Assembly (NCBI GenBank): GCA_947372865.1
Contig: CANBVJ010000004.1
Location: forward strand, 1-64,000
Direction of reading: 5' to 3'
Source: Comamonadaceae bacterium
Lineage (GTDB): Bacteria > Pseudomonadota > Gammaproteobacteria > Burkholderiales > Burkholderiaceae_C
Length of the DNA: 64,000 bases
Numbering within the stretch: the first letter of the stretch is position 1; each line of letters starts with the position of its first letter. Positions 11,050 through 36,053 of the stretch are shown here, one piece after another. Under the pieces are notes generated by a model, which was given only the letters and a program-made list of their open reading frames with translations, did not search any database and had not been told where the DNA came from. The translations under genes and the position numbers were made by a program.

Positions 11050-12827
11050 GCGCGGCGCCGACGCAGGCGCCACCAGACCAGCAAGGCGACCACAGCGAGT
11101 AGCACCCCAAGCACCTGTTTGCCAAACACGGGTAGCCAGTAACGCGACACGCTGTTGATAAACACCTGGCGTTGCGGGGTATAGCCCGAAGGCATTTCCA
11201 ACACCTGGTTGGCTTTTTCATAGGCGGCGTAATCGGCCTGCATGGCCGCAAATTCTTGCGGGAAACGGGCGCTGATGTCCTGGGTTTCACCGGGATCCTG
11301 GCTCAGGTCGTACAAATGCCACAGACCGTCGCCCAGCGAGGGCATATTGCGCACCAGCTTCAAATTGCCCTTAAATAGCGCAGCGTTGCCGGAGAGTTCA
11401 TAGCCCAGCGGCTGGTCGGGCTTGCGCACCGTGCTGGCGCTTCCCTGCAACAAGGGCAACAGGCTCATGCCGGTCATAGGCTCGACCGCGGCACCCTGGT
11501 AGCTGGCGCCCGGTGCCTTCACTTGTGCCAGGTCCAGGAGGGTGGGCGTGATGTCGGTCACATGGGTCAGCGCACCCTCAATATGGTTTGCCTGGCGCAC
11601 CGGCGGGCCCGATATCAGCATGGGCGTGCGGATGCCGCCCTCACCGGACCAGAATTTGTAGGTATACAAAGGTGATGCCGAAGCGCTGGCCCAGCCGGGT
11701 CCTGGAATGCCGATCGTGCCTTTGGCCCCCAGCGTTTCGGTGTCCTGCTTGTAATGAAACACCAGCCAGGGTTGGGCCTCGTGGTAGTCCGAACCTTCGG
11801 GGCCGTTGTCGGACAAAAACACAAACACGGTGTTGTCGTACTGGCCAGTTTTCTTGAGGTGGTCCACCAAGCGCCCCACGTGCGCGTCCATGGCCTCGGC
11901 CATGGCGGCGTAGACCTCCATCTGGCGCTCCATGTGCAGGCGGTCTTTTTCAGACAGCGCGTTCCAGTCGCCGGTGGTGGACATGGTGGTCAGGCGGGTG
12001 CCTGCCGGCACCAGGCCCAGTTCAATCGCTTTTGCCAGGCGGCGCTCGCGCAGCACGGTCCAACCTTCGTGGTATTTGCCCTTGTACTTGTCGATATAGG
12101 CCTTGGGCGCTTGCACCGGCACGTGGTTGGCCTGAAACCCGACATAGGCAAAAAACGGCTGCTGCTTGCGCGGGTCCGCGTCGATGTAGCCGATGGTGCG
12201 ATCGACAAAATATTCCGACGAATAAAAGTCGCTGGGCATGGTGGCAGTTTTGCCGTCCTCAAACCAGTACACCTGGGGCAGATGCGGCAGGTACTGCTTG
12301 GCCGGCTCCCAGTTGTCCGAGCCCGTGTCGCCCTGCACGATGGACTTGTCAAAGCCGCGGCGGTTGGGCAGGTTGAAAGGCTCGGAGCCCACGTTCCACT
12401 TGCCCGCGATATAGGTGCGGTAGCCGCTGTCTTGCAGCAGCGAGGCCACGGTCACGACATTGCTCGCCAGAGAGCCCTGGTAGCCGGGCTTGCCCAAATG
12501 TTCGGTGGGCATAGCTTCGCGCAGATTGCCCACGCCATTGCGGTGGTTGTCCACGCCAGTCAGCAGCATGGAGCGCGTGGGTGAACACGAGGCCGCCACG
12601 TGGAAGTTGGAAAAACGCATGCCGCGTTTGGCCAGCGCGTCTAGGTGCGGCGTGGCGATTTCGCCGCCAAACGCGCCCAGGTCGGAAAAACCCCAATCGT
12701 CGGCGACCAGCACCACGATATTGGGACGCGAGGCCGCACCCGGCGTCGCACCCATTGCCACGCCCTGGGCCGCTAACACCCCCGCCAAGGCCAGCGTGTA
12801 AGCCACGCGGATCGCCGTTTTTTTCAT
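11046..12827 (-). CDS. Arylsulfatase-family sulfatase, exported, with C-terminal membrane anchor
   Basis: 593 residues. Signal peptide 1-27 (TLALAGVLAAQGVAMGA). The alkaline-phosphatase-fold sulfatase domain starts at RPNIVVLVADDWG, with metal-binding DD at 43-44. The active-site motif CSPTR at 81-85 supplies the Cys converted to formylglycine, followed by SMLLTG. The metal pair VFLSDNGPEG and the usual C-terminal HLYDLSQDPGE are present. The last about 30 residues hold a hydrophobic segment (VLGVLLAVVALLVWW) then RRRR, a likely C-terminal inner-membrane anchor. Start ATG 12827 has GAAGG 8 bases upstream. It leads a three-gene coupled operon and has a palindromic operator about 50 bases upstream. 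Substrate unknown. Confidence 0.9.
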   Translation of the reverse strand: MKKTAIRVAYTLALAGVLAAQGVAMGATPGAASRPNIVVLVADDWGFSDLGAFGGEIATPHLDALAKRGMRFSNFHVAASCSPTRSMLLTGVDNHRNGVGNLREAMPTEHLGKPGYQGSLASNVVTVASLLQDSGYRTYIAGKWNVGSEPFNLPNRRGFDKSIVQGDTGSDNWEPAKQYLPHLPQVYWFEDGKTATMPSDFYSSEYFVDRTIGYIDADPRKQQPFFAYVGFQANHVPVQAPKAYIDKYKGKYHEGWTVLRERRLAKAIELGLVPAGTRLTTMSTTGDWNALSEKDRLHMERQMEVYAAMAEAMDAHVGRLVDHLKKTGQYDNTVFVFLSDNGPEGSDYHEAQPWLVFHYKQDTETLGAKGTIGIPGPGWASASASPLYTYKFWSGEGGIRTPMLISGPPVRQANHIEGALTHVTDITPTLLDLAQVKAPGASYQGAAVEPMTGMSLLPLLQGSASTVRKPDQPLGYELSGNAALFKGNLKLVRNMPSLGDGLWHLYDLSQDPGETQDISARFPQEFAAMQADYAAYEKANQVLEMPSGYTPQRQVFINSVSRYWLPVFGKQVLGVLLAVVALLVWWRLRRRRA

Positions 12828-30666: not shown

Positions 30667-30695
30667 TTACGGGCCCATCGCCGCCGACGGCGGGT
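30667..30695 (-). repeat. 29-bp copy of the MocR gene 3' end (left boundary repeat)
   Basis: 27 of 29 bases match 34584-34612, the stop codon and last nine codons of the intact MocR gene, in the same orientation. On the minus strand it still reads PPSAAMGP and a TAA stop. Similarity ends abruptly on both sides. The last 21 bases (30675-30695) are identical to 34592-34612. It lies just upstream of the prlF promoter. Confidence 0.85.
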
Positions 30696-30705
30696 CGTTC
30701 ACTCG

Positions 30706-30761: not shown

Positions 30762-31091
30762 ATGATGAACCACCAAACGTTTAGCGGCAAGAGCACCTCC
30801 ATTGGCAACTCCAACGGTTTTCGGTTTGATGCAGCGCTATTCAAGGCCAACCCTGAGTTTTTTGGCGAGGTGCGCGGCACCGTGCTGGCGCCAGGGCAGA
30901 TGCTGGTGTCGGTCGTGCCCACGGGCGAGCAACAGCCGGAGCTGCAGGACGAAGAGGCCAACCCCGTCATGCTGGCGTTCTTGAGTTTTCTGGAGGGCCA
31001 GATGGCCGCGCACCCTGAGCTGATTGAGCCAGTAACGGAGGCCCAGATGGCCCACATCGCCGCCTTGGTGGAAGGTGTGGAGCCTGATTGA
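30762..31091 (+). CDS. prlF: Type II antitoxin, PrlF/SohA family
   Basis: 109 residues, acidic C-terminal half. The N-terminal part (GFRFDAALFKANPEFFGEVRGTVLAPGQMLVSV) has the short strand-rich layout of the AbrB-like PrlF fold. The rest (EEANPVMLAFLSFLEGQMAAHPELI) is the conserved toxin-facing helix region of this family. GGAG precedes the ATG by 6 bases. Its stop overlaps the toxin start (TGATG), the usual toxin-antitoxin arrangement. It neutralises YhaV and should repress the operon. Confidence 0.85.
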   Translation: MMNHQTFSGKSTSIGNSNGFRFDAALFKANPEFFGEVRGTVLAPGQMLVSVVPTGEQQPELQDEEANPVMLAFLSFLEGQMAAHPELIEPVTEAQMAHIAALVEGVEPD

Positions 31092-31549
31092 TGCAAAAAA
31101 ACGGATGGAATCTGTTTCAGTTCAAACCGTTTGCGCTGCGGCTGCAGGCGCTAACGCTAGACGTGGCGCGCCTGGCCCAGGCTGACCCCACGGGGTACAA
31201 GCAGCACCCCAAAACCAAACTGCTGGCGTCCGTTTACCAGTCGATGACCGTCAATGTGCCCACCAACCCTGCAGATCCGGCGTTTCGGCTGGGCCACACC
31301 CTTGGCAAGAGCCATGGAAACTGGCGGCGCGTCAAAAAAGGGCTGCCGCAGCGCTACCGGCTGTTCTTTATGTTCGCCTCCCACCCTTTGGCCGTGGTCA
31401 TTTATGCCTGGCTGAACGATGAAGACACGCTGCGCAAAGAGGGCAGCCGGACCGATGTGTATGAAGTGTTCAAGCGCATGCTGGAGCGCGGCGATGTGCC
31501 TTCTTCGATAGAAGAATTGATCCAGGGAAGCATGGACCCACAGACCTGA
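31091..31549 (+). CDS. yhaV: Type II toxin, YhaV family ribonuclease
   Basis: 152 residues, with the family features NGWNLFQFKPFALRLQAL at the start, PTGYKQHPKTKLLASV, and KSHGNWRRVKKGLPQRYRLFFMF, a RelE-like basic core. YhaV toxins cut RNA and arrest growth unless bound by PrlF. ATG 31091 shares its A with the antitoxin stop codon; a TTG one codon upstream is less likely. Intact length and frame suggest the pair is functional. It sits in the accessory hotspot between MocR-derived repeats, where a toxin-antitoxin pair could stabilise the segment. Confidence 0.88.
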   Translation: MQKNGWNLFQFKPFALRLQALTLDVARLAQADPTGYKQHPKTKLLASVYQSMTVNVPTNPADPAFRLGHTLGKSHGNWRRVKKGLPQRYRLFFMFASHPLAVVIYAWLNDEDTLRKEGSRTDVYEVFKRMLERGDVPSSIEELIQGSMDPQT

Positions 31550-31747
31550 AAAACTGGGCGAGCAGATGGGGCAAAAGCTTAAGCGCGCATGCTGGTGGAG
31601 GCCGAGACAAAAGTCGGTGGCCAGGGGGCGGCAGGTTGAGCGGAAAACCGAAACCGCAGGCACCAGCGACGAGCGAACCAACGAATACAAGCGCAAAGGC
31701 GGCGCGCAGACCAATGGCGTTGTTGACCTGCCCCTCACAATGAGCAC
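31550..31747. other. Degenerate non-coding stretch between yhaV and the SDR remnant
   Basis: No convincing intact gene. Short open frames on both strands have no recognisable motif. The 3' part (from about 31712) may be further decayed SDR sequence, since a frame leading into the remnant at 31748 reads a Pro-x-x-x-His-Val-Asn-Ala pattern. Confidence 0.4.
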
Positions 31748-31970
31748 GTGAACGCCATCGCACAAAATTTTGTGGACAAACCCACCGACTTCCCGCCCGA
31801 GGTACAGGCCACTCCACGCTTCTAGGAAAGCCTGCAGCGCGAGGTGCCGCTCGGGCGTTTGGTCGGCGCCCGCGAAGGCGCTGAATTTGCCGCCGATCTA
31901 GCGAGCGACGCGGCCTATTGCTTTGTCGGCTCAGGGGCTCCCTGTCTGCTGCGGCTGCGTGGGCCGCTAA
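31748..31970 (+). pseudogene. Broken 3' end of a short-chain dehydrogenase (SDR) gene
   Basis: The frame from 31748 reads VNAIAQNFVDKPTDFPPEVQ, then TPRF, a TAG stop at 31823-31825, and continues ESLQREVPLGRLVGAREGAE...FVG. This is the C-terminal third of an SDR (VNAIAQNF after the active site; REVPLGRL before the last helix). The TAG sits where a Gln (CAG) would be expected. Near 31931 a one-base shift restores a good ending, QGLPVCCGCVGR, with TAA at 31968-31970. So there is one nonsense and one frameshift mutation, and the N-terminal part is missing. The NP-x-x-FP segment recalls halohydrin-dehalogenase-like SDRs, a tentative link. Its stop overlaps the stop of the oppositely oriented MocR remnant. 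Confidence 0.8.
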
Positions 31971-32080
31971 GGATCCCTAGCCGCCGAGGGCGGGTTGTCG
32001 ATCAGCGGTTTGAGGATATGCGAGTCAGCCTCTAGCTGCGCTGCCGAGGCCGGGGTGTTCGGGCTGATACGAATGGCGTG
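31967..32080 (-). pseudogene. Truncated second copy of the MocR gene 3' end
   Basis: Aligns without gaps to 34584-34697 of the intact MocR gene, 90 of 114 bases identical by my hand count. On the minus strand it reads HAIRISPNTPASAAQLEADS and ends LIDNPPSAARDP plus TAG; 29 of 37 residues match. Just upstream (higher coordinates) the frame meets a stop and similarity ends, so only the last 37 codons remain. It is more diverged than the 29-bp copy at 30667, so the two fragments have different ages or sources. Confidence 0.85.
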
Positions 32081-32346
32081 TCCATTGGGCTAACGCGATC
32101 TTTGAGCATGGCTAACAGGCTTCCACTCCGCCACGCCTATGTAGCGCGGGTGCCGCATACCGCCTGGCTAACTAGCGCTCCAGCGAAGGAGAAATAAAAA
32201 GCCAAATTGATAAGCTTTATCCGTATTCGGGCTATAGTGCTTGTACTGAACACGTTCGCAAACTTGGTCCAGTAGACGCGTTGAGGCCAACGCAGGTTTG
32301 CCGACTTTGTGAGATTTTTATATTTGTAATTTGCTACACCTCAATG
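32081..32346. other. Intergenic, AT-richer, possible promoter for the cassette array
   Basis: No gene seen. It holds TTGATA (32207-32212) and TATAGT (32233-32238) but with a 20-base spacer, so only a weak promoter candidate; the -35 overlaps GATAA-gct-TTATC, a small palindrome. The drop in GC marks the left edge of the cassette segment. Confidence 0.4.
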
Positions 32347-32450
32347 GGCTAAGCTTTTGATGCAAAAGAGTTTTTTCAATTTTTGCAGGCTTGTTATCCA
32401 GTGGTGCACCAGAGTTATCCGGTGGTTTGCGGGCTACATCAAAGTTAGAC
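32347..32450 (+). repeat. Candidate degenerate attC (or attI-like) site left of cassette 1
   Basis: The right end is GTTAGAC (32444-32450), a fit to the integron core GTTRRRY, 22 bases before the first cassette gene. CATCAAAGTTAG (32437-32448) can pair with CTAAGCTTTTGATG (32349-32362) with a small bulge. The left core GGCTAAG departs from RYYYAAC, and the inner part has a direct (GTTATCC-x-GTGGT twice) rather than inverted repeat, so it is either a decayed attC or an insertion point. Confidence 0.5.
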
Positions 32451-32472
32451 GTCACAGGGAGATACTGAACGA

Positions 32473-33342
32473 ATGCGACTATCAAAATCCCTTTGTGCTG
32501 TGGTTGGTGACGTGCTCTCAACAACCGGATCGCATGCGTCGCTAGATGAGCTGTTTATTTCGGCGGGCGCCCCAGGCGAACCTCCAGCGCTATCTCATGG
32601 TTCGAAGTGGAAGACATGGCTATTCCGTGCTGGGCAAGACCCCAACTTAGACAGTCTTGCAATACTTGGGAATCTTCTCGAAGAATTTATGGATCTGCCA
32701 CCAGCTGATCCCGAGGCTGTGCAGAAGTGGAAGACGAACCGGAGTCGTATTGAGGCCGTGTTGGAACAGAATGGGCTCCGCTACTTTCGCTTTGGACGAG
32801 TTCTACCGCAGGGGATCAGCAACATTGATGAACCACCCATCGCAAGTGCGCAAGTCCGTCAAGCACCTACCAAGCCGACAAAGGTCGAGGAACTTCTTGA
32901 GACTACTGTGCGTGGACTGCGCCGAGCGATGCATCCCTTGACGCACCGAAGGAAGGGTGTGCAACCTCTGTCCTTCGGCAATGAATATGACGTTCAGGAT
33001 CTTTTGCATGCACTACTTCGCCCTTGGATCGGCGACATCCGACCGGAGGAGTTCACGCCGAGCTATGCGGGCGCGAGTACGCGAATGGACTTCTTGTTGC
33101 CAGCTCACGAACTGGTCGTCGAGACCAAGATTGTTCGGGACCGGTCCCATGCGAAGCGGATTGGCGATGAACTGATAATTGACATTGAGCACTACCGCAG
33201 GCACCCGAACTGCGCGACATTGTGGTGCGTCGTCTATGACCCAGACCAATTGATAACGAATATGCAAGGGATGAAGGATGACCTCGACGGAATCCGCAAG
33301 TCAAAAGATGGTGAGGTCACCGTCAAGACTTTCATCCTCTGA
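32473..33342 (+). CDS. Cassette-encoded PD-(D/E)XK nuclease, DpnII/MboI-like C-terminal domain
   Basis: 289 residues in two parts. Residues 1-about 135 are an unrecognised helical region. Residues about 135-289 match the DpnII/MboI-type restriction-endonuclease-like domain: FGNEYDVQDLLHALLRPW, EEFTPSYAGASTRMDFLLP with D206, then VVETKIV with E217-x-K219 completing D...ExK, and GDELIIDIEHYRRHPNCATLWCVVYDPD. No methyltransferase gene is next to it, so it is not an ordinary restriction pair. ATG with GGGAG 12-16 bases upstream. The stop is 10 bases before a complete attC, so the gene is the cargo of an integron cassette. A defence role is plausible. Codon use is less GC-biased than its neighbours. 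Confidence 0.82.
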   Translation: MRLSKSLCAVVGDVLSTTGSHASLDELFISAGAPGEPPALSHGSKWKTWLFRAGQDPNLDSLAILGNLLEEFMDLPPADPEAVQKWKTNRSRIEAVLEQNGLRYFRFGRVLPQGISNIDEPPIASAQVRQAPTKPTKVEELLETTVRGLRRAMHPLTHRRKGVQPLSFGNEYDVQDLLHALLRPWIGDIRPEEFTPSYAGASTRMDFLLPAHELVVETKIVRDRSHAKRIGDELIIDIEHYRRHPNCATLWCVVYDPDQLITNMQGMKDDLDGIRKSKDGEVTVKTFIL

Positions 33343-33352
33343 GCGTGATGAC

Positions 33353-33466
33353 GTTTAACCATTCGTTCAACCGGAAGCAGTGGGGCATGCCGCCGTTTTG
33401 GGCTCCATGTCATTCTGCCCCAAACGTCGTCATGCCCCACTGCTCCGGTTAACTCGGACGTTAGGC
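33353..33466 (+). repeat. Integron attC recombination site (114 bp)
   Basis: Outer cores are GTTTAAC (33353-33359, RYYYAAC) and GTTAGGC (33460-33466, GTTRRRY). Long imperfect arms pair 33369-33389 with 33431-33450, perfect except for one extra A near 33375-33376, the extrahelical base typical of attC. A second inner pair, CGTTTTGGGC with GCCCCAAACG, has one mismatch. The TTCGTTCAA and TTAACTCGGACG inner cores are those of classical 59-base elements. Recombination would cut between G33460 and T33461. Confidence 0.92.
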
Positions 33467-33471
33467 GTCAG

Positions 33472-34299
33472 ATGAACCGATTCACGGTGCTCGCAGACAT
33501 AGCCAGTCGGACGATGCTTGCTACAGCGGGAAGTCCGAGGACGGTTGCCGGTGCGGTCGCACTCGATACCGTGAAGCTCGAGGGTGTACGGAGGGAAGTT
33601 GGCTCACTGCCCAAGTGGGGAGCCTGTGGCTTCGATGAAGCAGCGTTCGTCGTGGACTTGATCGCCTCCCAAGCCACGGCAATGTCCATCGTCAGCATAA
33701 ACAGAGATACCGACGCCTGGAGACAGTTCCTCGTCGATGCCGAGGTACTCCACAACGCAATCATCCTCACGTCGCGAAAAGTAGCTGGTTGGGCAAAGCC
33801 TGCGAATCTCTTGAAGTTCATACTTCTTGGTTCCGCCTGTGCTGCAGCTACCGGACATGCGCTCGGGTCAGATCGGCGCGCACGCATCGTCGGAGCCACA
33901 GGTCGCCAGATCATCGAATGCGCCACAGTCTGCGACAAAGAGGTCGAAGGCAGAGAAAACTTGGAGGTCTTCGAATCGTTCTGGAGCATGCAGCGCATCC
34001 CCACCTCCAAGCTCGCGAAGGCCGGTTTCGAACTGATCTCCAATGAGGTCACCGTAACGACAGAGCAATTGGAGCCAGGGCTGATGCTGGCTGACTATGT
34101 GGCTGGCCTCGGACTCGCGGCAGCGACCGAAGATCCGGGAACAATGCCGCTACCTCTGGATCAGGCTACAGCCGCTCAGCTTTTGGCACCGCTTCGGAAC
34201 CAAGGCAAGCTTGTGGTCGTCGAAGAGGACTTTGACTATTCCTACAGCGAGATATTCAAAGACGTAATGAACAAGGCACGTGAGCTCGCTGACGCCTAA
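33472..34299 (+). CDS. Cassette-encoded protein of unknown function, possible RNase H/DUF3800-like
   Basis: 275 residues, no firm family. The start (VLADIASRTM...AGSPRTVAGAVAL) places an Asp (D9) on a first strand followed by a loop and a hydrophobic strand. The middle has IVGATGRQIIECATVCD and the end LEPGLMLADYVAGLG. A first-strand Asp plus a late LADxxAG is the pattern of DUF3800-like RNase H-fold proteins, but the usual DESG is missing, so this is tentative. ATG is only 6 bases after the attC core and has no SD. The stop TAA lies inside GCCTAAC (34294-34300), an RYYYAAC core, so the gene is the cargo of a second cassette. No signal peptide or membrane segment. Confidence 0.7.
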   Translation: MNRFTVLADIASRTMLATAGSPRTVAGAVALDTVKLEGVRREVGSLPKWGACGFDEAAFVVDLIASQATAMSIVSINRDTDAWRQFLVDAEVLHNAIILTSRKVAGWAKPANLLKFILLGSACAAATGHALGSDRRARIVGATGRQIIECATVCDKEVEGRENLEVFESFWSMQRIPTSKLAKAGFELISNEVTVTTEQLEPGLMLADYVAGLGLAAATEDPGTMPLPLDQATAAQLLAPLRNQGKLVVVEEDFDYSYSEIFKDVMNKARELADA

Positions 34300-34583
34300 C
34301 CCCTTACAGGGACTTCTCACGTAGTCAAGCATCGCAGGCGTGAGTTATTCGTTTTTAACGGCTTTCTTGCATTGGCGTGACGGGGATGGTGCGATAAAAC
34401 GGGAACAGACTGCACATCTACAGACGCCCTTATTCCGCCCTGGTGGGCGCGGAACCAGATACGAACCGCTAGCCTGGGCTCCATTGCTTTCCCGTGGTCA
34501 TTGCCAATCGAATGCCACAAGGGATTAGTCGGGTTTGCCCGCCGCAGGTCTGACCTGTTCGAAATCACCCATGCGACCGTACC
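34300..34583. other. Truncated end of cassette 2 and junction to the MocR gene
   Basis: Begins with the left attC core GCCTAAC (34294-34300), but no matching GTTRRRY partner or complementary arm follows before the MocR stop at 34584. A small inverted repeat CTCACG/CGTGAG (34315-34345) is all that folds. Short open frames have no recognisable product. The right half of the second attC was apparently lost. Confidence 0.5.
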
Positions 34584-35975
34584 TTACGGATCCATCGCCG
34601 CCGACGGCGGGTTGTCGATCAGTGCTTTGAGGATGTGCAAGCCCGCCTCCAACTGCTCCACCGACGCGGGCGCATTCAGGCTGATGCGAATAGCGTGGGG
34701 CGCGGGCGAGCGACCTACGGCAAAGTGGTCGGCGGTGCGCACCAGCACGCCGGCCTGGCGCAGTGCGGCGGCAAACTGGCCGGCGCGCCAGGGCTCGGGC
34801 AGGGGCAGCCAGATCAGCGGGAACTCGGCGTCGGTTTTGAATTCCAGGCCTTGCAGTACGGCGCGCGCGCATTCCAGGCGCTGGGCGGTCATCTGGCGCT
34901 GCTGGGCGATCAATCCCTCCATGGCGCCGCTTTCCAGCCAGCGGGTGGCGATCTCGGGCAGCAGGGGCGCGACCATCCAGCTATCGGCCCGCATGCTGGC
35001 GGCAAATTTGCTGAGCCAAGCCGGGGCGGCTTCCACATAGCCCACGCGCAGGCCGGGTGCGAGCACCTTGGAAAAGCTGCTCAGCAAAAACGACTGCTCG
35101 GGCAGCCAAGTGGACAAGGCGGGCAAGGGCTTGGCCTGCATGGCGGCGTGCACGCAGTCTTCGATGATGAACAGGCCGTGCGTGCGCATCACGGCGGCCA
35201 CCGCCTCGCGCCGCTCCATGGACATGGTCGCACCCGTAGGGTTGTGCAGCGTGGGCGCGCAGTAGACAAACTTGGTGTCAAAGGTTTTGGCCGCGCGCTC
35301 CAGCGCCTGGGGCACCATGCCCTGCTCGTCGGTCTCAATGCCAATAAGTTGCAAGCGCATGGAGCGCGCCAGCGCCTGCAAGCCGGGGTAGCTGAGCGAC
35401 TCGGTCAGCACCGCGTCGCCCGGGCGCGCCACGGTGCGCAGCACACAGGCCAGCCCGTGCTGGGCGCCGTGGGTCACCATCACGCGGTTCCACTGGCCGC
35501 TGGTGCCAAAGCGGCGCAGCCACTGGGCGCCGGCCTCGCGGTGGCGGCGCATGCCGGTCTCGCTTTGGTAGCTAAGCACCTGGCGCATGAGTTCGGCGTC
35601 CAGCGCCAGGCTTTGAAAGGCCTCATGCAGAGCGCTGGATTCGTCTCCCACCATGGCCACGTTGTGCGCCAGGTCGATGGGCTGCTGGTGGTCGGACTCG
35701 CCGCTCTCGGGCACGTGTTCGGCCGAGCGCACATAGGTGCCGTCGCCCACGCGGGCGGTGGCCAGGCCCTGGCGCTCCAAAATGGCATAGGCGCGGCTGA
35801 TGGTGCCGGTGGTCACGCCCAGGCGGTGCGCCAGGTTGCGCTGGGGCGGCAGCTTTTCGCCCATGGGCACTTGGCCGTTCAAAATGGCCTGGGCCAGGTC
35901 TTCGGCGATGGACTGGTATTTGGGCTTGCTGCCATCGCCCAGGCTGGCGGTGGAAATCAGTTGTTCAAAGGACAT
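34584..35975 (-). CDS. MocR-type regulator (GntR HTH fused to aminotransferase-like domain)
   Basis: 463 residues from ATG 35975. Residues about 1-80 form a GntR-type winged helix (YQSIAEDLAQAILNGQVPMGEKLPPQRNLAHRLGVTTGTISRAY). From about 110 comes a class I aminotransferase-like domain with THGAQHGLA, PTLHNPTGATMS, a PLP-binding Lys in SSFSKVLAPGLRVGY, and the C-terminal HAIRISLNAP. MocR proteins are PLP-responsive regulators, usually of a neighbouring gene. It diverges from the GMC oxidoreductase operon and is the obvious candidate regulator. Its 3' end (34584-34697) is the sequence duplicated at 31967-32080 and, for 29 bases, at 30667-30695. In-frame ATGs upstream (36053, 36017) would add a short extension. 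Confidence 0.88.
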   Translation of the reverse strand: MSFEQLISTASLGDGSKPKYQSIAEDLAQAILNGQVPMGEKLPPQRNLAHRLGVTTGTISRAYAILERQGLATARVGDGTYVRSAEHVPESGESDHQQPIDLAHNVAMVGDESSALHEAFQSLALDAELMRQVLSYQSETGMRRHREAGAQWLRRFGTSGQWNRVMVTHGAQHGLACVLRTVARPGDAVLTESLSYPGLQALARSMRLQLIGIETDEQGMVPQALERAAKTFDTKFVYCAPTLHNPTGATMSMERREAVAAVMRTHGLFIIEDCVHAAMQAKPLPALSTWLPEQSFLLSSFSKVLAPGLRVGYVEAAPAWLSKFAASMRADSWMVAPLLPEIATRWLESGAMEGLIAQQRQMTAQRLECARAVLQGLEFKTDAEFPLIWLPLPEPWRAGQFAAALRQAGVLVRTADHFAVGRSPAPHAIRISLNAPASVEQLEAGLHILKALIDNPPSAAMDP

Positions 35976-36024
35976 AAGGGCTGCATTTGGTGGGGCAATT
36001 ACTTTATTTGAACGCATTGATGGC

Positions 36025-36053
36025 ATCCAATCCATTGCATAGTATCCATGCAC
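36025..36053. promoter_or_regulatory. Candidate MocR binding region with direct repeats
   Basis: In the MocR/GMC divergent gap, ATCCATTGCA (36030-36039) and ATCCATGCAC (36044-36053) form an imperfect direct repeat about 14 bases apart, preceded by another ATCCA at 36025. MocR regulators commonly bind direct repeats in divergent gaps. Confidence 0.4.

Follow-up and report, generated by a model that had tools for sequence, protein, structure and literature searches.

At positions 33353-33466 of the window (the whole 64-kb stretch of DNA that was analysed) lies an attC site with an ORF on either side (Table 1). The first-pass annotation had placed an attC site between two gene cassettes here, and sequence inspection agreed with its coordinates and outer cores; as had also been noted, the first gene stops 10 bases before the site and the second starts 6 positions past its last base. 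The borders of both cassettes, which were no part of that annotation, fit the attC register. The same annotation had proposed a cassette cluster without an integrase. A complete intI gene is indeed missing, but the cluster is not isolated: approximately 0.9 kb upstream of the attC site, in the order and orientation of an integron, are an attI site and the decayed 5′ stub of an intI gene, and downstream the second attC site is cut by one end of an insertion sequence.

Table 1. Features of the integron locus and its borders in the window
Feature	Position	Strand	Evidence or remarks
Left edge of the 3.9-kb insert, a short copy of the aminotransferase-gene 3′-end motif	30667-30698		In insert-free relatives 30698 joins 34584
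Decayed 3′ end of a gene taken to be short-chain-dehydrogenase-like	31730-31967	+	As beside the aminotransferase gene in G100 and G085 (L095, L096)
Decayed 113-bp copy of the aminotransferase 3′ end	31968-32080	-	Direct repeat of 34585-34697, 79.6%
intI stub, approximately the first 77 of 337 codons	32098-32331	-	DNA alignment, tblastn
Relic of a presumed LexA-like box	32324-32339		6/16 bases changed relative to CTGTACATTCATACAG of three intI-bearing loci
attI site	32332-32444	+	Core 32419-32444; cassette cut after G32444
Gene cassette 1	32445-33460	+	TTAGAC to the cut in R′ of its own attC
Cassette 1 gene, 289 aa, C-terminal DpnII-MboI-type nuclease domain	32473-33342	+	PF18742, E 1.7e-46
attC site of cassette 1	33353-33466	+	Cores, hairpin fold, covariance model
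Gene cassette 2, attC cut after R″	33461-34300	+	Core matching, IS-end alignment
Cassette 2 gene, 275 aa, no family found	33472-34299	+	ORF and database searches
IS1111-type element end, transposase and other end missing	34301-34563		Subterminal repeat AGGGACTTCTC at 34308-34318
Flanking GntR/aminotransferase (MocR-like) regulator gene, right insert border	34584-36053	-	Profile matches, locus comparison

The outer cores of the attC site, R″ GTTTAAC (33353-33359) and R′ GTTAGGC (33460-33466), fit the consensus RYYYAAC...GTTRRRY, and the inner cores are L″ GTTCAACCGGA, from 33365, and L′ TCCGGTTAAC (33444-33453). Hairpin arms of 28 nt (33376-33403 and 33417-33444) are 89% complementary. The bottom strand folded at -39.1 kcal/mol, compared with a mean of -15.8 (sd 2.5) for shuffled sequences (z = -9.45), and 0/200 shuffles folded as well. 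Two bases remain unpaired, both on the R″-L″ side with 7 pairs between them: a T, corresponding to the single extra A (33375/33376) recognized in the first-pass annotation, and a G, corresponding to an extra C (33368) that it had missed. We take this to be the pattern of the bases in attC sites that IntI recognizes.

Scoring relied on a covariance model, R1, trained on 12 attC sites from six other genomes, with the window excluded; it contains 23 pairs, 13 of them with both sides changed. With this model, the site at 33353-33466 scored 85 bits (E 2.1e-19). The next match in the window reached 14.4 bits, with no others up to E 10, and an Rfam search of the window returned nothing above gathering scores. 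The training set comprised 12 of the 21 sites of an earlier alignment, three of them re-cut by 12 bases; we chose to omit the other nine (near-duplicates, and rows that were short or poorly aligned) before scoring the window. The 21-site alignment itself was dropped, as four of its rows started at L″ rather than R″ and some were misaligned. Our first home-made attC finder was too strict because gapless stems are broken by bulged bases, and was replaced by fold-based searches and then by the covariance model. We conclude that 33353-33466 is a genuine attC site joining two gene cassettes, predicted from its sequence to be recombined by IntI as a single strand.

At least one cassette, consisting of an ORF plus attC, is present at the attI site, namely cassette 1. 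It starts after G32444 in GTTAGAC, the reverse complement of which, GTCTAAC, matches R″ of its own attC at 6/7 positions. Cassette 2 starts in GTTAGGC (33460), and its own R″, GCCTAAC at 34294-34300, is the exact reverse complement and overlaps the stop codon of the cassette gene. The cassette 1 protein shares its nuclease domain (PF18742) with EcbAgaN and other DpnII-MboI-type nucleases, and the domain is related to Argonaute-associated nucleases (PADLOC, 3.9e-30; PDB 23wq, EcbAgaN, E 9.8e-6), which suggests a role in defence. The PADLOC and PDB matches reach only the C-terminal half of the protein, and the cassette contains no Argonaute gene. Full-length relatives were found on two plasmids (62-64%; 318 plasmid records had any match), on three viral contigs (64-70%) and in two genomes of the order (73-79%; any match in 9/398 other genomes). 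We make no claim that the nuclease gene is a travelling cassette: near the 79% relative, in G216, the only attC-like match is weak (15.5 bits, E 0.11; fold -10.8 kcal/mol), and the attC model found no match at five loci of nuclease relatives (plasmid H1, the three viral contigs and G285). At L045, a remoter relative of residues 7-111 is found amid three attC-like sites, of which two belong to the training set of the model. The cassette 2 gene is an orphan ORF. Its protein had no match in plasmids, genome contigs, viral contigs or the 398 other genomes of the order, and weak matches in 3/102 other genomes of the genus, the best with 30% over 129 residues; an AlphaFold2 model from the single sequence (mean pLDDT 37) was not used.

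The attI site was predicted from sequence. Its core is identical at 26/26 positions to that of a complete integron of the same genus (G064 C181), and the cut point falls between CAAAG and TTAGAC. The attI sites of G064 C181 and of the second complete integron, G087 C52, end in ...GGTTTGCGGGCTACATCAAAGTTAGGC, and the same letters precede GTTAGAC (32444-32450) in the window. By blastn, 32209-32455 was 77.5% identical to the start of the G064 intI gene plus attI, and this intI is complete (432.9 bits, cut-off 265). A tblastn search with IntI aligned 32317-32135 (62% over aa 6-65, E 3e-16) and reached residue 65-68, and DNA alignment traced intI homology back to approximately 32098, codon 77 of 337. 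The stub has lost its start codon, carries a 1-base deletion near codon 6 that shifts the frame and lacks the remainder of the gene; a functional divergent intI in cis is thus absent from the locus. Relative to G064, the window shows no change in the 26 positions of the attI core, 27/80 in the rest of attI, 19/95 in the stub and 6/16 in the box, which we take to be LexA-like from its consensus. No consensus sigma-70 site for a cassette promoter was found in 32000-32500. Because an attI site with its cut point and an intI stub lie upstream of the cassettes, the locus reads as an integron with its integrase deleted, in which 32445-33460 is the first cassette.

At the other end of the array, what reads as one end of an IS1111-type, attC-targeting element interrupts the attC of cassette 2 behind its first core. 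The sequence at 34296-34563 matches, with 73% identity, one end of a complete IS adjoining an integron in G106 (L031); there the element has an attC R″ (GTCTAAC) on one side and the remaining part of an attC on the other. The full element has 11-bp perfect subterminal inverted repeats at both ends (AGGGACTTCCC/GGGAAGTCCCT), a transposase with DEDD_Tnp_IS110 (9.5e-15) and Transposase_20 (7.1e-23) domains, and a non-coding region downstream of the transposase gene. The DEDD transposase is absent from the window remnant, which retains one end only, with AGGGACTTCTC after GCCTAAC; related non-coding ends occur in 15/102 other genomes of the genus, some of them partial. IS1111 family elements such as ISKpn4 and ISPst6 are described as targeting one attC end and encoding a guide RNA (seekRNA) in their non-coding region (PMC11187229). 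The full relative resembles the elements portrayed there in its DEDD transposase, subterminal repeats, long downstream non-coding region and insertion at an attC end, whereas only the non-coding end remains in the window.

We compared the locus at the flanking gene in 12 genomes of the same genus. The insert is absent in seven of them: in G046 the equivalents of 30698 and 34584 abut, G035, G024, G094, G004 and G075 are alike, and in G086 95 bp lie between the flanks. At locus L090, both sides of the insert meet at 11511-11542. Four genomes (G089, G100, G085 and G082) have other sequence beside the flanking gene. In the twelfth, G087, contig C18 carries at the same place an intI stub and attI, then a first cassette whose gene has 187 aa, an attC site, a second cassette with a RelA/SpoT-domain gene (PF04607, 3.4e-15) and an IS end behind R″ GTCTAAC, followed approximately 3 kb away by the same flanking gene (protein 94% identical). 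Fixation of the same DNA in all relatives without a link to integrons, which had been raised as a possible objection to the attC assignment, is contradicted by this distribution. The attC site between the G087 C18 cassettes was named from its cores and fold; the model gave it only 15.3 bits (E 0.34). These cassettes have no DNA match to those of the window; the two IS ends, which may stem from a single old insertion, are 88.6% identical, with different cut points and different cassettes ahead of them. We rejected the pair as proof of cassette exchange after loss of intI, since the stub junctions and lesions differ. A further attC-like site of G087 (L088 13714-13800; 28.3 bits, E 1.7e-4) lies past the IS end, near the aminotransferase gene.

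The absence of a complete integrase extends to the whole genome. A TIGR02249 search returned four matches, none over the cut-off, to three proteins, namely XerD (which passes its own cut-off with 343.6 bits), a XerC-like protein (310 bits against a cut-off of 335) and a tyrosine recombinase of 202 aa. Sub-threshold matches of this kind also occurred in the 14 control genomes. The assembly is 95.6% complete in 84 contigs, so an intI gene may lie in the missing piece. The attC model detected three further sites, C16:11732-11860 (69.8 bits), C16:13308-13436 (42.8 bits) and C45:23559-23701 (64.9 bits), with no attI or IS end found around them. The 19 kb surrounding the C16 sites held no intI or attI match either; C45 has a weak 26-residue intI-like match (E 0.002 in 74 kb) 0.6 kb from its attC site. 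On C57, no intI or attI match was found beside the acyl-CoA dehydrogenase gene. The C16 sites belong to a second cassette cluster (L131 7376-11141), with ORFs before, between and after the two attC sites; we take one ORF to be AlbA-like and another to be HNH plus exonuclease-like, and there is one more ORF besides.

Our search of relatives covered 198 genomes (genus, family and order, the window genome included), of which 66 had an intI over the cut-off. The attI query found 14 places in 11/103 genomes of the genus, and 13 were counted, G027 C95 being a 28-bp match with 11/26 core mismatches; since attI was part of the query, loci without attI could not be found. A complete intI stands in cis at two of the 13 sites, G064 and G087 C52, and at G078 C71 there is an intI with gaps, over the cut-off only when its pieces are summed. 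The other ten (the window, G087 C18, C69 and C2, G082, G016, G086, G057, G089 and G032 C67) have no intI in cis, or a stub at most; G032 has a 266-position intI on another contig than its attI. By tblastn, a stub was detected at eight loci, and in all eight it includes N-terminal residues next to attI (L088 and L102 being weak, E 0.04-0.34); G087 C69 also retains a C-terminal intI piece. All three intI-bearing loci, of which two are near-identical, have the LexA-like box unchanged; the other ten all differ from it at 3-14 of its 16 positions. The attI core has 0-2 changes in 26 positions in nine of the ten intI-less loci and five in G089; bases are lost at the cut point in G089 and G087 C2. 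The intI-bearing G078 has 1/26 changes in the core and 23/80 in the rest of attI. Within G087 alone there are four attI sites of the same type (C18, C52, C69 and C2), with one complete intI adjoining any of them.

Two sister genomes are the most informative for what happens at such sites. In G082 (C24) and G016 (C169), the integron lies behind an acyl-CoA dehydrogenase gene, where G064 and G087 C52 have complete ones. Both retain the same 324-bp remainder between that gene and attI, 91.4% identical, with most of intI missing from the same place. Identity between the two is 0.88-0.96 in 12 bins over the 1452 bp up to the cut point, and 0.47 when alignment is forced beyond it. The model recognizes two attC sites in each array (55.9 and 48.0 bits; 41.7 and 47.6 bits), and the cassette ORFs are different, with no DNA match between the genomes. 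Sequence of 91% identity resumes farther on, and the stretch from the last attC to the right flank differs except for short patches. Both genomes (99% and 75% complete) lack an intI over the cut-off. A single-base deletion near codon 6, adjoining a run of T, is common to the window, G082 and G016, and may be due to chance. In both sisters an open frame, ...DIRWFA(G/D)YIKVR, runs across the attI core (L100 8459-8501, L102 3998-4040) into the first cassette, in the direction of the array. The attI1 site has a short ORF, and by analogy the frame could encode a leader peptide.

Taken together, these observations make it very probable that the window contains a chromosomal integron that has lost its integrase and kept attI and two cassettes. 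We infer the order of events and the former activity of this integron as follows. At least two incoming cassettes would have been captured, IntI joining the folded bottom strand of their attC sites to attI behind G32444. Later, most of intI would have been deleted and the rest would have decayed; approximately 77 of its codons would remain, together with the former promoter region, the attI core and two cassettes. Insertion of an IS1111-type element past the first core of the last attC would have left a remnant that fixes the end of the array. The cassettes would now be immobile unless an integrase came from elsewhere. The lack of a complete intI in window and genome, and the presence of attC sites on C16 and C45 of the same genome, the former with no intI or attI match in the surrounding 19 kb, would also fit a plain CALIN, in which attC sites and cassettes were dropped into the chromosome and never stood beside intI or attI. 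With an attI site and its cut point, and an intI stub directly upstream in the right order and orientation, we consider such an origin highly improbable.

A different question is whether the integron is still in use, with IntI from another integron, a plasmid or a phage serving attI in trans, which would add to the loss of the integrase rather than replace it. The unequal decay relative to G064, in which the attI core alone is unchanged, points in this direction, as do the different cassettes of G087 at the same locus and those of G082 and G016 behind the same intI deletion. G087 also has a complete intI on C52, with an attI core one base off its C18 site, and CALINs are stated to be mobilizable in trans (PMC12444791). 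For the window itself, we nevertheless regard continued use as unlikely: its genome has no intI over the cut-off, and the IS end keeps the last cassette from being exchanged. The stubs of the window and G087 C18 share no junction or clear lesion, and therefore their cassette difference may predate the loss of intI. Conservation of the core may likewise date from constraint before the loss, and in the intI-bearing G078 the core is conserved to a similar degree beside a diverged remainder of attI. For G082 and G016, the simplest reading, from this one pair, is insertion or removal of cassettes at attI by IntI acting in trans, later than the intI loss that both share. The main rival is replacement by homologous recombination, whole arrays with their flanks being swapped among relatives without any integrase. 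Conserved flanks common to relatives provide substrates for it, and the difference between the last attC and the right flank would not arise from recombination at attI alone. Against this, identity stays high up to the cut point and drops immediately thereafter, and a swap that preserved the intI deletion would need one crossover in the short interval from the deletion to the cut point, unless the donor had the same deletion; we judge it improbable as the source of the array differences. The wider proposal, that attI sites of the genus without their own integrase still receive and exchange cassettes via IntI in trans, attI and the promoter region being the unit kept after intI loss, is possible, and we advance it tentatively while leaning slightly against it.

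The window integron is a further case of the known integrons with inactivated intI. In one survey, almost one in three intI genes was inactivated or truncated (PMC2426708), and a Xanthomonas study reports such genes in the majority of isolates (PMC12444791). The Xanthomonas ilvD-locus integrons (PMC12444791) and the 'pseudo-integrons' (PMC2426708) have, as here, attI beside a decayed or truncated intI, a fixed chromosomal place and repeated inactivation across species. Here, in contrast, most of intI is gone and the attI subtype occurs at several chromosomal places. One sister pair has different cassettes behind a common intI deletion, whereas the Xanthomonas arrays are characterized as dynamic before inactivation (PMC12444791). 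The IntegronFinder 2 paper holds CALINs to be degraded integrons and defines them by attC sites and cassettes without intI nearby, as in the window, and gives two attC sites as the default requirement (PMC9024848). The window differs from a CALIN in its attI and intI stub, with one whole attC and one cut attC; having only one complete attC, it would probably not be reported at default settings. The nearest complete counterpart, G064 C181, shares the attI core and has five same-strand attC sites by the same model (one of them a training site), but its intI is complete, its LexA-like box is unchanged and it lies behind an acyl-CoA dehydrogenase gene rather than an aminotransferase gene.

Integrons without an integrase are usually taken as frozen. 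In the papers listed for attI sites whose integrase is a pseudogene, is absent or serves them in trans, no title or abstract opening announced cassette exchange behind a common intI deletion. If intI-less attI sites do exchange cassettes, there would be more active chromosomal capture sites than a search for intI reveals, and loss of intI need not end the benefit of an integron. The intI gene is costly and linked to the SOS response. The G082/G016 pair makes the reading of exchange in trans testable, and the window offers a fossil with unequal decay: an unchanged attI core, a decayed stub and LexA-like box, and one cassette end locked by an IS.

The surroundings of the array bear several further marks of insertion. 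Three direct copies of the aminotransferase 3′ end (motif around GGATCCATCGCCGCCGACGGCGGG) edge inserted segments, at 30667-30698, 31968-32080 and 34584-34697, and a similar partial copy in G087 (L088 13059-13133) lies ahead of a presumably BrnT/BrnA-like pair; the 3′ end looks like a repeated landing place. Left of the integron, the insert carries at 30930-31549 a PrlF-like antitoxin gene (30.4 bits, cut-off 32) and a YhaV toxin gene (PF11663, 1.5e-41), and the stretch 31245-31854 recurs with 91% identity at a contig end in G089. The G+C content is 54% in the 2-kb bin at 32000-34000, compared with 61-70% in the bins of 26-32 kb and 62-65% in those of 34-42 kb. Finally, on G086 C111 (L094 3809-4038 and 5240-6367) a second copy of the acyl-CoA dehydrogenase 3′ end (87%) lies past the attI remnant, mirroring the aminotransferase duplication around the integron of the window.
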